This document shows, piece after piece, positions 29,111 through 34,473 of a DNA stretch of 35,555 bases. The DNA comes from Flavobacteriia bacterium (GTDB lineage Bacteria > Bacteroidota > Bacteroidia > Flavobacteriales_D > Crocinitomicaceae): assembly GCA_947458955.1 (NCBI GenBank), contig CANGZT010000009.1, positions 1-35,555 on the forward strand. The letters are read 5' to 3'. Position 1 is the first letter of the stretch; every line of letters begins with the position of its first letter. Below the pieces are notes generated by a model. The model was not told where the DNA came from. It saw only the letters and a list, made by a program, of their open reading frames with translations, and searched no databases. Made by a program: the position numbers and the translations under genes.

Positions 29111-31081
29111 TTATTTTATTTTGTCAAAGCGTTGAATCAAAGGGTTCAACGCTTTTTTTGTTTCAGGTGATAAAGTACTTTCGTTATCTGTGTAAATGCG
29201 TTTAGCAATTTGCTCATAACTAGGTTCGTTTAACATTAACTCGTATAGCTGATAATTACTTTCTATATCACCATACTTTGATAAAAAAGTATCGATAGCT
29301 TCTGCTGTTTTTATATACCCAAAGCGTATGCTTTGATTGAACCAAAGCCTTTGCAATGCCTTATTTGGATGTGTAGAAAAATGATATTTACTTTCTAAAT
29401 AGTCTAGTTTCTCTGTGCTGATCGTTTTGGGTAAAAGTTGAATAAATACATACCAATCATCTAATGTGTATTTTTTAACAAGGCGTTTAAACTTCTTTAT
29501 TTTTGAAAATTTACGCTGATAACTATACAATTTACAATCTCTGTGTATGGTTTTATACCTTTTGGATTCAATGAGTAAATCTTGCTTGTTTAATTTACTG
29601 TCCGCTAACCAATGTTTGATGTTGTAATTGATGATTTCGTTTTGAATTAAGAAATGGGTTAGTTCACGTTCAAATCGTTCCTTGGTGTTTACTGTTTTTT
29701 TCTTATTATAATTAGCTAAAAAGCGTTCAAATAAGGTTCTACCGATTGTTTTTTCAAGATGATTCAGAAATAAAAAGCCTTTAAGTTGATAATTCATTCT
29801 TTCTTGATAATTAATATAGTAGTTTTCTTCGCAAGGCTTACTGTATACATTCGAGAGCTTTACTAGAGGAATGTGTAGTGTTTTTGCATTTTTTCGATTT
29901 TGTTCAACATAACTTTTTATTAAAAAATCTCGGTATTCAATGCTTGTGTTTTTGGTTTTGATATATAAAGCTAAAAAGCGGTTCATGCCAATGATTAATT
30001 GCCGATTAGGCTCACATTTGGTGCTGAATAAGGGGTAGGGCCAAGTTTGAAATAGGTATTCTTGTAAATAATCATCTGAGGATTGGAATCTGCTTAAACT
30101 CACTGGATGTACGAAGGATAAATTGGGGTAGTCGAAGGACTTGAAGGGAAATTTTGGGGGTAAAATACAAAGATTATTTTCCTTACGTTGAAGATCTCCA
30201 AATAGGGTTGTCGTTTGATTTTTTAGAAAATTAAAACGTTTAAATTCAGTTGTTATTTTACTTGATGTAAATTGATTTAAGTAATAGATTGTTATTTCTT
30301 TATTTATTTTTTTTGAAGCTAAATTCCCCAAGAAAATACCAATATCATAAACTGCGAGTTTATGGGGTGATTCGTAAAAAAATCGATTGCTATCTAGTTG
30401 GTGAAGGTTGGTTGTAGAACCGAAAATAGGAGTTAGGTTACAATCATTTTCAATCTCTATTGAAAAATCAAGTTTGTGGTGACTTACATCTTGAATTGGA
30501 ATCCAATTTCGAGTGTATTTTTCACCTGGAATGGTGTAAAGTAGGTTGTGAGCTGGTCTTATGCTATCGATGTACCAATGTAAATTGGTTGGTTTCTCTG
30601 TGGTTTGGTAATAAATGTTGACGAAACGAGTGTGTTTGGTGATGTTTACACTCAAAGGGGCGCCATGAATACTATCTTCAAGTCCAATTACATAGTCAGT
30701 GTTTTTTTCATTTCCAATTTTACCTACTGTCACCTTTTGAATTTGAAGTCCATTGATGTCAAAAAGTATAGTATCGCTTTTGTGTTTTTTCAAACGGTAT
30801 CGAGCAATACCGTAAATAGATTTATTGCTAAAGTTGATGTCTAAATCCAGGTGAAGTTGTTCGGCAACTACCTGTCTTGTATTGGCATAACTGAAATCAT
30901 TACCAAGTTCTAAATCAGTGATGCTTGGTTTTATCACCTGTTTTTCCTCATGGTTTGTAGTACACGAAACGACAAAACCAACCAAGATCAAAAGACTAGT
31001 TGAAACTATATTTTTTTTATATTTTTTAAATTTCAATATATTGAATTTTAATTTGTTAATATTTAAAATATAATTAATCAC
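29111..31081 (-). CDS. M1/leukotriene-A4-hydrolase-like lipoprotein lacking all canonical catalytic residues (pseudo-aminopeptidase)
   Basis: Lipobox GFVVSC; N-terminal M1 domain (EQLHLDLDINFSNKSIYGIARYRL, IQDVSHHKLDFSIEI); LPPKFPFKSFDYPNLSFVHPVSL aligned to LTA4H [23 protein letters not shown]; C-terminal helical repeat domain ALQRLWFNQSIRFGYIKTAEAIDTFL. Confidence 0.8.
   Translation of the reverse strand: MINYILNINKLKFNILKFKKYKKNIVSTSLLILVGFVVSCTTNHEEKQVIKPSITDLELGNDFSYANTRQVVAEQLHLDLDINFSNKSIYGIARYRLKKHKSDTILFDINGLQIQKVTVGKIGNEKNTDYVIGLEDSIHGAPLSVNITKHTRFVNIYYQTTEKPTNLHWYIDSIRPAHNLLYTIPGEKYTRNWIPIQDVSHHKLDFSIEIENDCNLTPIFGSTTNLHQLDSNRFFYESPHKLAVYDIGIFLGNLASKKINKEITIYYLNQFTSSKITTEFKRFNFLKNQTTTLFGDLQRKENNLCILPPKFPFKSFDYPNLSFVHPVSLSRFQSSDDYLQEYLFQTWPYPLFSTKCEPNRQLIIGMNRFLALYIKTKNTSIEYRDFLIKSYVEQNRKNAKTLHIPLVKLSNVYSKPCEENYYINYQERMNYQLKGFLFLNHLEKTIGRTLFERFLANYNKKKTVNTKERFERELTHFLIQNEIINYNIKHWLADSKLNKQDLLIESKRYKTIHRDCKLYSYQRKFSKIKKFKRLVKKYTLDDWYVFIQLLPKTISTEKLDYLESKYHFSTHPNKALQRLWFNQSIRFGYIKTAEAIDTFLSKYGDIESNYQLYELMLNEPSYEQIAKRIYTDNESTLSPETKKALNPLIQRFDKIK
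29126..29158 (+). terminator. Intrinsic terminator of fabI, inside the 3' coding end of the opposing gene
   Basis: AAAGCGTTGAA-TCAAAGGG-TTCAACGCTTT followed by TTTT; perfect 11-bp stem. Confidence 0.85.
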
Positions 31082-31116: not shown

Positions 31117-31207
31117 CTAATGTCTTATGTCTAGTGACTACTGTCTTTTGTCTAATGTCTAATATCTTTTGTCTAGTGACTATTGACTATTGACTAGTGT
31201 CTCGTAT
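31117..31207. repeat. Heptameric degenerate tandem repeat, 13 units of consensus CTWNTGW
   Basis: CTAATGT CTTATGT CTAGTGA CTACTGT CTTTTGT CTAATGT CTAATAT CTTTTGT CTAGTGA CTATTGA CTATTGA CTAGTGT CTCGTAT; no indels, next CTA is the complement of the stop codon of the adjacent gene. Confidence 0.92.
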
Positions 31208-31936
31208 CTATGCTTCTCTTCTCATAAAATGTTGTATCACCTCTGAAGCACCGTGTAAACCAAAAAGTCCAGGCATATAGCTGATGGTACCATAGAATGA
31301 GCGTTTAAAATTACTTCCATCTGTAAGTTTTAATGAGTCTTTAAGTTGTAATTCTGATGAATAAACAGCTTTAACTCGTTTAAAGTTTATTTTTTCTCTT
31401 TTTAAACGTTTTTTGATAGTTCGTCCTAGTTTACAGTTGTGTGTGTTTTCAAGTTTAGTGACTTGTACTTTAGAGGGATCTAATTTTCCACCTGCTCCCA
31501 AATGAGTGATGATTTTAATTTTTAGTCTAAGGCAGGCTTTGATCCATTCTAATTTTGGCGTGACTGAATCGATGCAGTCCATGACATAGTCTGGTTTGTA
31601 TTCTTCAAGTATTTCCCATACGCGTTCTGGAACGACAAATTCTTCAATAATGTTTAATTTGATGTCAGGGTTTATGTCTTTTATTTTTTCACCAAGAACC
31701 ACAGCTTTATTTCGATCGATAGTTGAATTTACTGCGGTCAATTGTCTGTTTTTGTTAGTTATATCAAAAACATCTCCATCGATAATGGTCATGGTTCCAA
31801 TTCCGGATCTAGCTATAAATTCACCAGCGAAGGATCCGATGCCTCCTAGACCAACGATTAATACATGTGCGTCTTTTAATTTTGCTATGTTCTCCTCTCC
31901 AATAAGTAAGGCGCTTCTTTCTAGCCAATTTCCCAT
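31208..31936 (-). CDS. tcdA: ThiF-family tRNA threonylcarbamoyladenosine dehydratase (TcdA-like)
   Basis: RSALLIGEENIAKLKDAHVLIVGLGGIGSFAGEFIARSGIGTMTIIDGDVFDITNKNRQL; SYMPGLFGLHGASEVIQ. Confidence 0.92.
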   Translation of the reverse strand: MGNWLERSALLIGEENIAKLKDAHVLIVGLGGIGSFAGEFIARSGIGTMTIIDGDVFDITNKNRQLTAVNSTIDRNKAVVLGEKIKDINPDIKLNIIEEFVVPERVWEILEEYKPDYVMDCIDSVTPKLEWIKACLRLKIKIITHLGAGGKLDPSKVQVTKLENTHNCKLGRTIKKRLKREKINFKRVKAVYSSELQLKDSLKLTDGSNFKRSFYGTISYMPGLFGLHGASEVIQHFMRREA

Positions 31937-32541
31937 TTCTTAAATACTGTTTTAAAGTTGTTGCTAATTATGTTTTTCAAATCTAACAAAGAAATCTCTT
32001 TTAAGGAAGCAACTTGTTGGTAAACTTCCTCAATGTTGTGGTTGAGATCGTTGTCTGTTTCTAAAAACAATCTGTCTTTTGGGATGGATTTGAGTGTAGA
32101 TTGTAATTTCTTGTCATGTAAAATAGCAGTTCCAATGCTGAGATAGAATCCCTCGTTTATTAAGATCGTTGTTAGGTTGGTCTTTCTGAATCCGTGAATG
32201 ATCCATGGTTGCTTAGGCTTTAGTGATCGTTTTATCTCAATTAATTCATTGTATGCTTTTATGCAATGAATAATAACAGGTAAGTTTAGTTTTTCAGCAT
32301 AAATTAGTTGTGATTTAAAATCTTTAATTTGTTTATTAATATCTGTTTGAATTGTTTTATCTAAACCAATTTCTCCAATAGCAAGGCAGTTTTTATGGGT
32401 GCAAATAGTTTCGTTAAATAAAAATTGATTTACCTCAAATGGAGCGATACCATAGCTGAAAGGTGAAGTTAAAACTTCTTTAGCGTGCATGATTTCTAAC
32501 CCAAATTCTTTTTTTTGATGCGTATGAAGGTTTATCAACAT
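31921..32541 (-). CDS. TatD-family hydrolase
   Basis: NLHTHQ, AIGEIGLD, LPVIIHCIKAYNELI, WIIHGFR, RLFLETDND; 16-nt overlap with tcdA. Confidence 0.88.
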   Translation of the reverse strand: MLINLHTHQKKEFGLEIMHAKEVLTSPFSYGIAPFEVNQFLFNETICTHKNCLAIGEIGLDKTIQTDINKQIKDFKSQLIYAEKLNLPVIIHCIKAYNELIEIKRSLKPKQPWIIHGFRKTNLTTILINEGFYLSIGTAILHDKKLQSTLKSIPKDRLFLETDNDLNHNIEEVYQQVASLKEISLLDLKNIISNNFKTVFKKWEIG

Positions 32542-32616
32542 TGTTTTTCTTTTTTAAACGAAAGATACCAATTTAAAATAAATTTCATATTTTCACGCCT
32601 TTGTAATTTTAAACCT

Positions 32617-34473
32617 ATGGAACAAACACAAAAAGGACACCCTAAAGGACTGTACTTATTATTCACCACTGAAATGTGGGAGCGTTTTAGTTACTACGGT
32701 ATGCGTGGTATTTTTACCCTTTTCTTGACTGGAGCTTTAATGTTTGATAAGAAAACGGCATCAGGCTTTTACGGTTCATATACTAGTTTGGTTTATTTGA
32801 CTCCAATTATAGGAGGTTATTTTGCCGATAACTTGTGGGGGAACAGAAGATCTATAATGGTAGGAGGTATCATGATGGCTATCGGTCAATTTTTTATGTT
32901 CTTAAGTGGGTCGTTCTACCAACAACATGATTTAGCTGTAACTTTTATGTTGATAGGCCTAACTTCATTAATTTTTGGAAATGGATTTTTCAAACCAAAC
33001 ATTTCTACGTTAGTTGGTCAATTATATTCTGAAACGGATAAACGTAAAGATGCTGCATTTACAATCTTCTACATGGGGATCAATTTAGGTGCTTTTATCG
33101 CTCCATTAATTTGTGGTGGTCTAGGTGAACGATATGATATTAATGGTAATCCAATTGCTGGCGCTTTCAAATGGGGGTTCCTATGTGCTTGTATTGGTAT
33201 GATTATCTCAGTTGTAATGTTCAAATTAAGAATGAACAAAGTACTTGTTGGTCCTGACGGTGAGCAAATTGGTGTAGTATCTAACAAGATGAGATTAGCG
33301 AAAATGAATGAAGACAAGGGAGTTGAAGTAGTTGATGCTCCTAAATCTAAAAGAAATGTGTATACAGGCGTTTTAGTTGGAATTTTCTTATTCATCATCT
33401 TAAGGCTTCAAGTGTTTATTTCTGCCGATGAATCTACTGTAGATGTTGTAAACAACTATATTTCTGCAGCTATTTTTGCTATCGCTGTCGCGATTCCTTT
33501 GATTATTATTCTTGATAAGTCGTTAACTAAAGTGGAAAAAAGCCAAATTAGCGTGATTTACATCATTGCATTTTTCGTAATTTTCTTCTGGGCTGCATTT
33601 GAACAAGCAGGTGCCTCATTGACTTTCTTTGCACAAGAACAAACAGATCGTGTATTCTTTGGTTGGGCAATGCCAGCAAGTTGGTTCGGTAGTTTTAACG
33701 CTGTATTTATAGTGATTTTGGCGCCAATAGTTTCAATTTTATGGACTAAATTGGCAAATAAAGGAAAAGAGCCTGCTTCACCATACAAACAAGCGATGGG
33801 GTTATTCTTACTTGCTTTAGGTTATGTGTTTATTGCCTATGGAGTAAAAGGGGTAGAGCCAGGAATCAAAGTAAGTATTATTTGGTTGACAGGTCTTTAT
33901 TTAATACATACGGTGGGTGAATTATTCTTATCACCAATTGGTTTGTCTATGGTAAATAAGTTAGCACCTGTTCGTTTTGCTTCTTTATTGATGGGAGTAT
34001 GGTTCTTAAGTACTGCTGCTGCGAATAACTTTGCTGGTTTCTTAAGTTCATTCTATCCAGAACCTGTTGTTAAAGCTTCTTATGTGCGTGAATTAGAAAA
34101 AGAATTTACTACTAAATCTCATAATGCACTATTACAAGTGGAAGATCTTAAAGAGGCTAAGTTAGCTGATACTACTGTTGTTTTTGATGCAAAAGGGGTA
34201 GAACAAAATGTGAAATATGATGCAATTAAGTTTAATAATTTATTTCCAAAAACAACTAATAAAAAACAATTAGAAGAAAACGCGAAAGTGATTGAAAAAA
34301 TCAAAATTGATGCAGCTAAAAACTCAATCAATATTGAAAAATCATTCTTAGGAATTAAAATCAATGATTTACATTCATTCTTCATGTTATTTGTTTACTT
34401 AGCTGGTGGTGCAGCCATTGTACTATTCTTCTTAAGTAAACCATTACTGAAAATGATGCACGGAGTTAAATAA
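32617..34473 (+). CDS. POT/PTR-family proton-dependent peptide transporter (MFS)
   Basis: HPKGLYLLFTTEMWERFSYYGMRGIFTLFLTGAL, NPNISTLVGQLY-type FKPNISTLVGQLY, FYMGINLGAFIAPLICG; preferred start ATG 32617 rather than 32515. Confidence 0.95.
   Translation: MEQTQKGHPKGLYLLFTTEMWERFSYYGMRGIFTLFLTGALMFDKKTASGFYGSYTSLVYLTPIIGGYFADNLWGNRRSIMVGGIMMAIGQFFMFLSGSFYQQHDLAVTFMLIGLTSLIFGNGFFKPNISTLVGQLYSETDKRKDAAFTIFYMGINLGAFIAPLICGGLGERYDINGNPIAGAFKWGFLCACIGMIISVVMFKLRMNKVLVGPDGEQIGVVSNKMRLAKMNEDKGVEVVDAPKSKRNVYTGVLVGIFLFIILRLQVFISADESTVDVVNNYISAAIFAIAVAIPLIIILDKSLTKVEKSQISVIYIIAFFVIFFWAAFEQAGASLTFFAQEQTDRVFFGWAMPASWFGSFNAVFIVILAPIVSILWTKLANKGKEPASPYKQAMGLFLLALGYVFIAYGVKGVEPGIKVSIIWLTGLYLIHTVGELFLSPIGLSMVNKLAPVRFASLLMGVWFLSTAAANNFAGFLSSFYPEPVVKASYVRELEKEFTTKSHNALLQVEDLKEAKLADTTVVFDAKGVEQNVKYDAIKFNNLFPKTTNKKQLEENAKVIEKIKIDAAKNSINIEKSFLGIKINDLHSFFMLFVYLAGGAAIVLFFLSKPLLKMMHGVK

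Follow-up and report, generated by a model that had tools for sequence, protein, structure and literature searches.

The closest described relatives of the protein analyzed here are ColAP, a cold-active M1 aminopeptidase of Colwellia psychrerythraea (PDB 3cia), and the leukotriene A4 hydrolases (LTA4H) of human, Xenopus and yeast (TIGR02411, PF09127). ColAP carries an intact GGMEN motif, an intact HELAH-x18-E zinc site and an intact catalytic Tyr, and the equivalent zinc and base residues of LTA4H are H295, E296, H299 and E318. In LTA4H, E271 serves as the site for the amino end of the substrate, R563 and K565 form the carboxylate site, and Y383 touches the substrate (PMC3405069). Among eukaryotic proteins, the TFIID subunit TAF2 has a predicted aminopeptidase-like fold (PMC4309443), and a review of metallopeptidase pseudoenzymes has yeast Tma108 as its only M1 entry (PMC11266112). 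Closest in lineage are the active LTA4H-type lipoproteins of other Crocinitomicaceae (for example L055, and L011, which is 28% identical to the protein under study), which are orthologous to it and in which the catalytic residues are invariant.

In the window, i.e., the whole stretch of 35,555 nucleotides that we analyzed, we identified a minus-strand ORF (31081..29111) with a GTG start, 656 codons and no internal stops, confirming that the reading frame is intact as the initial annotation had stated. The true start is probably the TTG at codon 16 (31036), since this agrees with the start of the ortholog L002. A signal peptide and the lipobox GFVVSC precede the M1-like part of the protein, and the lipidation Cys of this previously noted lipobox is invariant in 30 of 30 aligned homologues; the lipobox suggests that the protein is lipid-anchored at the envelope. 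The gene and its parts are as follows:

29111..31081, minus strand: candidate pseudopeptidase gene, LTA4H/ColAP-type M1 lipoprotein (ORF, family match, fold)
30962..30979, minus strand: lipobox GFVVSC, residues 35-40, predicted lipidation at Cys40 (sequence)
30308..30904, minus strand: N-terminal beta domain, residues 60-258 (AF2 model, domain identity)
29699..30307, minus strand: former catalytic domain, residues 259-461 (PDB alignment, AF2, domain identity)
29114..29698, minus strand: C-terminal helical domain, residues 462-656, with PF09127 at 541-645 (PF09127, AF2)

Both profile searches and structure prediction place this protein with LTA4H and ColAP. It matches TIGR02411 over residues 64-643 (E = 2.5e-30) with 105.8 bits, which is far below the equivalog cut-off of 761.7, and PF09127 over residues 541-645 with 36 bits (cut-off 27 bits); no match of the protein to PF01433 (cut-off 27.7 bits) was reported. 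Its homology to LTA4H is full length, and ColAP is its best match in both sequence and fold, also over the full length and with the same three-domain layout: phmmer against the PDB returned 3cia first (1.9e-36), and a profile of the genus matched 3cia at 9.8e-73. The AF2 model (pLDDT 81.7, with 71-97 per 10-residue block in the N-terminal beta domain) gave ColAP 3cia (1.1e-33) and then LTA4H as the top Foldseek matches, and the model of a 35%-identical congener (pLDDT 80.2) again ranked ColAP and LTA4H first, with a TFIID complex chain (7edx_B) also found; the input alignments of both models included active homologues, and confidence was low in the loop carrying Cys417. Judged from these profiles and models, the relationship to LTA4H is well beyond chance, and the M1/LTA4H fold with three domains that had been read from the sequence is borne out by TIGR02411, PF09127, 3cia, and AF2 with Foldseek.

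Alignment of the protein with its active homologues identified a different residue at every catalytic position, affecting all the motifs that are intact in ColAP, and also at the Arg that binds the substrate carboxylate in LTA4H:

30128..30142, minus strand: KSFDY (314-318) in place of GGMEN (alignments)
30047..30061, minus strand: EYLFQ (341-345) in place of the zinc motif HELAH (alignments)
29990..29992, minus strand: Ile364 in place of the third zinc ligand Glu (alignments)
29786..29788, minus strand: Gln432 in place of the catalytic Tyr383 (alignments and profile alignment to 3cia)
29267..29269, minus strand: Asp605 in place of the carboxylate-binding Arg563 (alignment; role of R563 from PMC3405069)

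The first zinc His has become E341, the catalytic Glu Y342 and the second zinc His Q345, and these changes, together with GGMEN to KSFDY and Glu to I364, agree with the initial annotation throughout. Its view that the proton-donor Tyr is kept did not hold. The aligned residue is Gln432, since the conserved K434-G435 anchors the register and Tyr431 lies one residue off; alignments A1 and A2 and the 3cia profile alignment agree on this register, and two MAFFT alignments, in which subclades B and C show a gap around Tyr/Cys417, were not used there. Gln occupies the position in 10 of 10 close pseudo-homologues, with the region reading FKQLKG, NLQLKG or RYQIKG in congeners versus AYVKG in the active enzymes, and the additional loss of this Tyr makes the case for a pseudo-peptidase stronger than first described. 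The GxMEN motif, which holds the Glu271 site, is absent from all congeners, the equivalent of Arg563 is never Arg in the genus, and a search of the protein for an intact HExxH-E elsewhere found none. Compared with LTA4H, the protein therefore lacks the zinc site, Glu271 of GxMEN, Tyr383 and Arg563, so that both substrate anchors are gone and catalysis is predicted to be lost; with both zinc His, GxMEN, Tyr and Arg gone, the M1 zinc mechanism would be left without working parts. The statement that every catalytic residue is replaced holds for the protein in the window and fails for subclade C (L009, L010), which keeps Glu at both 342 and 364. The pattern of replacement varies by subclade, with E, Q or K at 341, Q, N, T or S at 345, and I, T, S, L or E at 364.

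Our survey of orthologs demonstrated that the gene is present in 11 of the 13 genomes of the genus and that none of these 11 copies has either zinc His, so that the loss is fixed and clade-wide at the level of the genus. Outside the genus, the zinc His and the GGMEN residues are present in 75 of 75 aligned relatives, and 19 of 20 further loci that we checked by pattern have an intact site, the remaining one being a fragment. In the tree, the 11 pseudo copies form one side of a branch with SH-aLRT 99, and they have long branches and odd composition. One locus, L113, was considered as a further pseudo copy and rejected: it comprises only an N-terminal piece, lies where a contig ends, and groups with the active enzymes. 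An active query run against 246 genomes of the order scored 1e-74 to 1e-92 in those congeners that it matched and far better in nearly all others; no other clear outlier appeared among the 246, with a few weak ones (G193 and G201 on score alone, and G018, which is fragmented). A single-sequence search of the genome contigs with the window protein gave no match, and a search with alignment A2 gave matches. In named collections, the close relatives come from metagenome bins that go under the names Flavobacteriia, Flavobacteriales or Crocinitomicaceae, and several have species labels that are plainly unreliable; thus, public bins (L048, L049, L054, L083) carry implausible labels (Chryseobacterium gleum, Chitinophaga pinensis, Planktophila, Polynucleobacter) on Crocinitomicaceae-like contigs. 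The most divergent pseudo member, L026 (G012:C6:43171-44964), has a partly deleted active-site helix region at a retained ancestral locus, and may represent a further step of divergence.

Most pseudoenzymes described in textbooks arose from a gene duplication that left an active sister in place. We examined the locus and the remaining M1 complement of the genus, and the conserved neighbors in the window are as follows:

31208..31936, minus strand: tcdA-like ThiF-family gene, conserved upstream neighbor (profile match, locus comparison)
31921..32541, minus strand: TatD-family gene, conserved upstream neighbor (profile match, locus comparison)
32515..34473, plus strand: POT (PTR2) peptide transporter gene, divergent, also beside many active orthologs (profile match, locus comparison)

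The order POT transporter(s)/tatD/tcdA/M1 is common to the congeners, to L026 and to several active orthologs (L055, L058, L061, L065), with L055 and several other active copies sharing the lipobox as well. When the genus was searched with an active query, the dead copy came first, followed only by M1 proteins of other subtypes, and no active copy of the LTA4H type was returned. Both the window's genome and G001 encode peptidases of these other subtypes with an intact HExxH-x18-E, and the motif is kept in all ten other-subtype M1 proteins that we examined from two genomes. The check for a separate active paralog that the initial annotation called for thus found only M1 of other subtypes and none of the LTA4H type. 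Completeness is only 60% for the window's genome and 90% or more for six congeners. The ancestral locus, together with the failure to find an active copy in the genus, argues that the ortholog itself was converted, i.e., that the sole LTA4H-type ortholog appears to have been inactivated in place near the base of the genus, rather than persisting as an inactive duplicate next to a working copy.

The neighbors tatD, tcdA and fabI are housekeeping genes and offer no functional lead. The presence of POT transporters at the locus bears on the idea that the protein is a peptide-binding decoy or chaperone that holds peptides uncut, perhaps feeding the adjacent transporter or the other M1 peptidases, an idea also favored by the retained two-domain cleft architecture and by the precedent of yeast Tma108 (PMC11266112). 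However, the same POT neighborhood accompanies active copies, and Tma108 keeps its HExxH. POT transporters are, moreover, inner-membrane proteins, and we consider this explanation unlikely because both peptide-end anchors, the amino-end Glu271 and the carboxyl-end Arg563, are gone from the old cleft.

Several further features of this region were observed. Between tcdA and the pseudopeptidase gene (31117-31202) lie approximately 12 degenerate tandem heptamers (TAGACAT/TAGTCAC type) with higher periods of 21 and 42 bp; TAGACATTAGACA, at up to 2 mismatches, has 6 matches versus 1.4 expected in the whole window, and Rfam gave no match in the window. The TatD-family protein (31921-32541) is short at 206 aa, with a profile match starting at position 60 of 253; its gene is fast-evolving in the genus (dN/dS 0.15-0.30), but the protein still appears to have HxH and further likely metal ligands. 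In the neighboring coaBC and recN (L049 12031-13221 and 9399-11057, versus L047/L048), dS is very unequal between the same genome pairs, with recN at 0.19 versus 1.3-1.4, which suggests recombination near the pseudopeptidase locus.

If the protein had no function, the gene would be a slowly decaying pseudogene, and the long branches, the loss of 50 or more positions that are invariant in active enzymes and the partial loss of the active-site helix in L026 could all be read in this way. Our analysis of selection makes this highly improbable. In three close pairs, dN/dS of the pseudopeptidase is 0.10-0.15 at dS 0.17-0.29, which is similar to functional neighbors: about that of a beta-lactamase-fold gene and at or below that of TatD, with fabI, tcdA and POT lower. 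ORFs are intact in 11 species down to <30% identity, with no frameshifted ortholog among the 11, and the signal peptide, lipobox and fold are retained. Of the two congeners without a match, whose assemblies are only 74-76% complete, G005 has a tcdA match that starts with the first bases of a contig and a truncated fabI frame, and G003 is missing tcdA as well as the M1 gene. That the only LTA4H-type copy has lost its catalytic site and is still selected implies that the protein has a selected job besides aminopeptidase catalysis. The proposal that this is a pseudo-peptidase kept by selection for a role other than catalysis is supported by the recovered M1/LTA4H fold, by the lack of a second HExxH-E and by these dN/dS values.

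As to what this job might be, the alignments identified invariant residues that are specific to the pseudo-homologues, including His168, Pro185, Glu187, Ser238, Gly248, Pro348, Phe352, Cys356, Cys417 and Gln432. Two of these are Cys:

30014..30016, minus strand: Cys356, a Cys newly invariant across 10/10 pseudo-homologues, unconserved in active enzymes (alignments)
29831..29833, minus strand: Cys417, second new invariant Cys (alignments; low model confidence here)

The pair is kept in 10 of 10 pseudo-homologues and absent in L026, and could possibly form a Cys356-Cys417 disulfide. Several of the residues that are invariant in 10 of 10 pseudo-homologues and absent or unconserved in active enzymes are potentially reactive, and it can be proposed that the old cleft was repurposed as a new, non-zinc catalytic site using, e.g., His168, Glu187, His325, Cys356 and Cys417; within subclades, moreover, the former active-site region shows purifying selection, at dN/dS 0.03-0.15. 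We regard a repurposed enzyme as quite unlikely, with weaker support because each subclade has its own replacements at the catalytic positions, which is not what a fixed new site would show; most of the new invariants are missing from L026, and the catalytic domain is just 27% identical between subclades.

Pseudo subclades A and B are 51% identical to each other in the N-terminal, 27% in the catalytic and 35% in the C-terminal domain; the corresponding values among active enzymes of the family are 62%, 70% and 46%. The N-terminal beta domain is thus the best-conserved domain between pseudo subclades, the reverse of the situation in active enzymes. A stricter reading, in which only this domain is constrained, was softened, since within recently diverged pairs the three domains are under about the same constraint; purifying selection acts along the whole pseudopeptidase chain.

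We consider it probable that the protein is the direct ortholog, converted in place, of the LTA4H/ColAP-type envelope lipoprotein that occurs throughout the family and order, and that it is kept for binding or docking, a role that we infer from the evidence above. In the simplest version, the ancestral enzyme would already have had a second, non-catalytic role, mainly on the N-terminal beta domain, such as docking to a partner or to a surface polymer; peptide cleavage by the LTA4H-type enzyme would then have become dispensable, with other M1 peptidases still encoded, and the binding role would have been kept while the cleft was rebuilt as structure (the new Cys pair, Pro348, Phe352, Gln432). 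That such an important prior function, mainly of the N-terminal domain, is the reason why the sole LTA4H-type enzyme was converted in place is a tentative suggestion, about which we are more doubtful than confident. If true, active orthologs across Flavobacteriales would be bifunctional, with a role in docking or as a scaffold that can be separated from their peptidase activity.

A search of the open-access literature found no report of a bacterial M1 or LTA4H-type pseudopeptidase. TAF2 likewise has an M1-like fold without a peptidase role, as a structural part of TFIID, but is eukaryotic, larger, nuclear, not of the LTA4H type and not a lipoprotein. Tma108 is likewise an M1 member with a proposed non-enzymatic binding role, but it keeps HExxH-x18-E and binds nascent chains via the substrate pocket, whereas the site of the window protein is gone. 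Non-catalytic M1-fold proteins are thus already known from eukaryotes. In this aquatic genus the only LTA4H-type copy has lost its catalytic site at the original locus, and other genera keep the site invariant, a natural separation-of-function experiment that provides a defined set of active and dead orthologs for finding the job of the protein.
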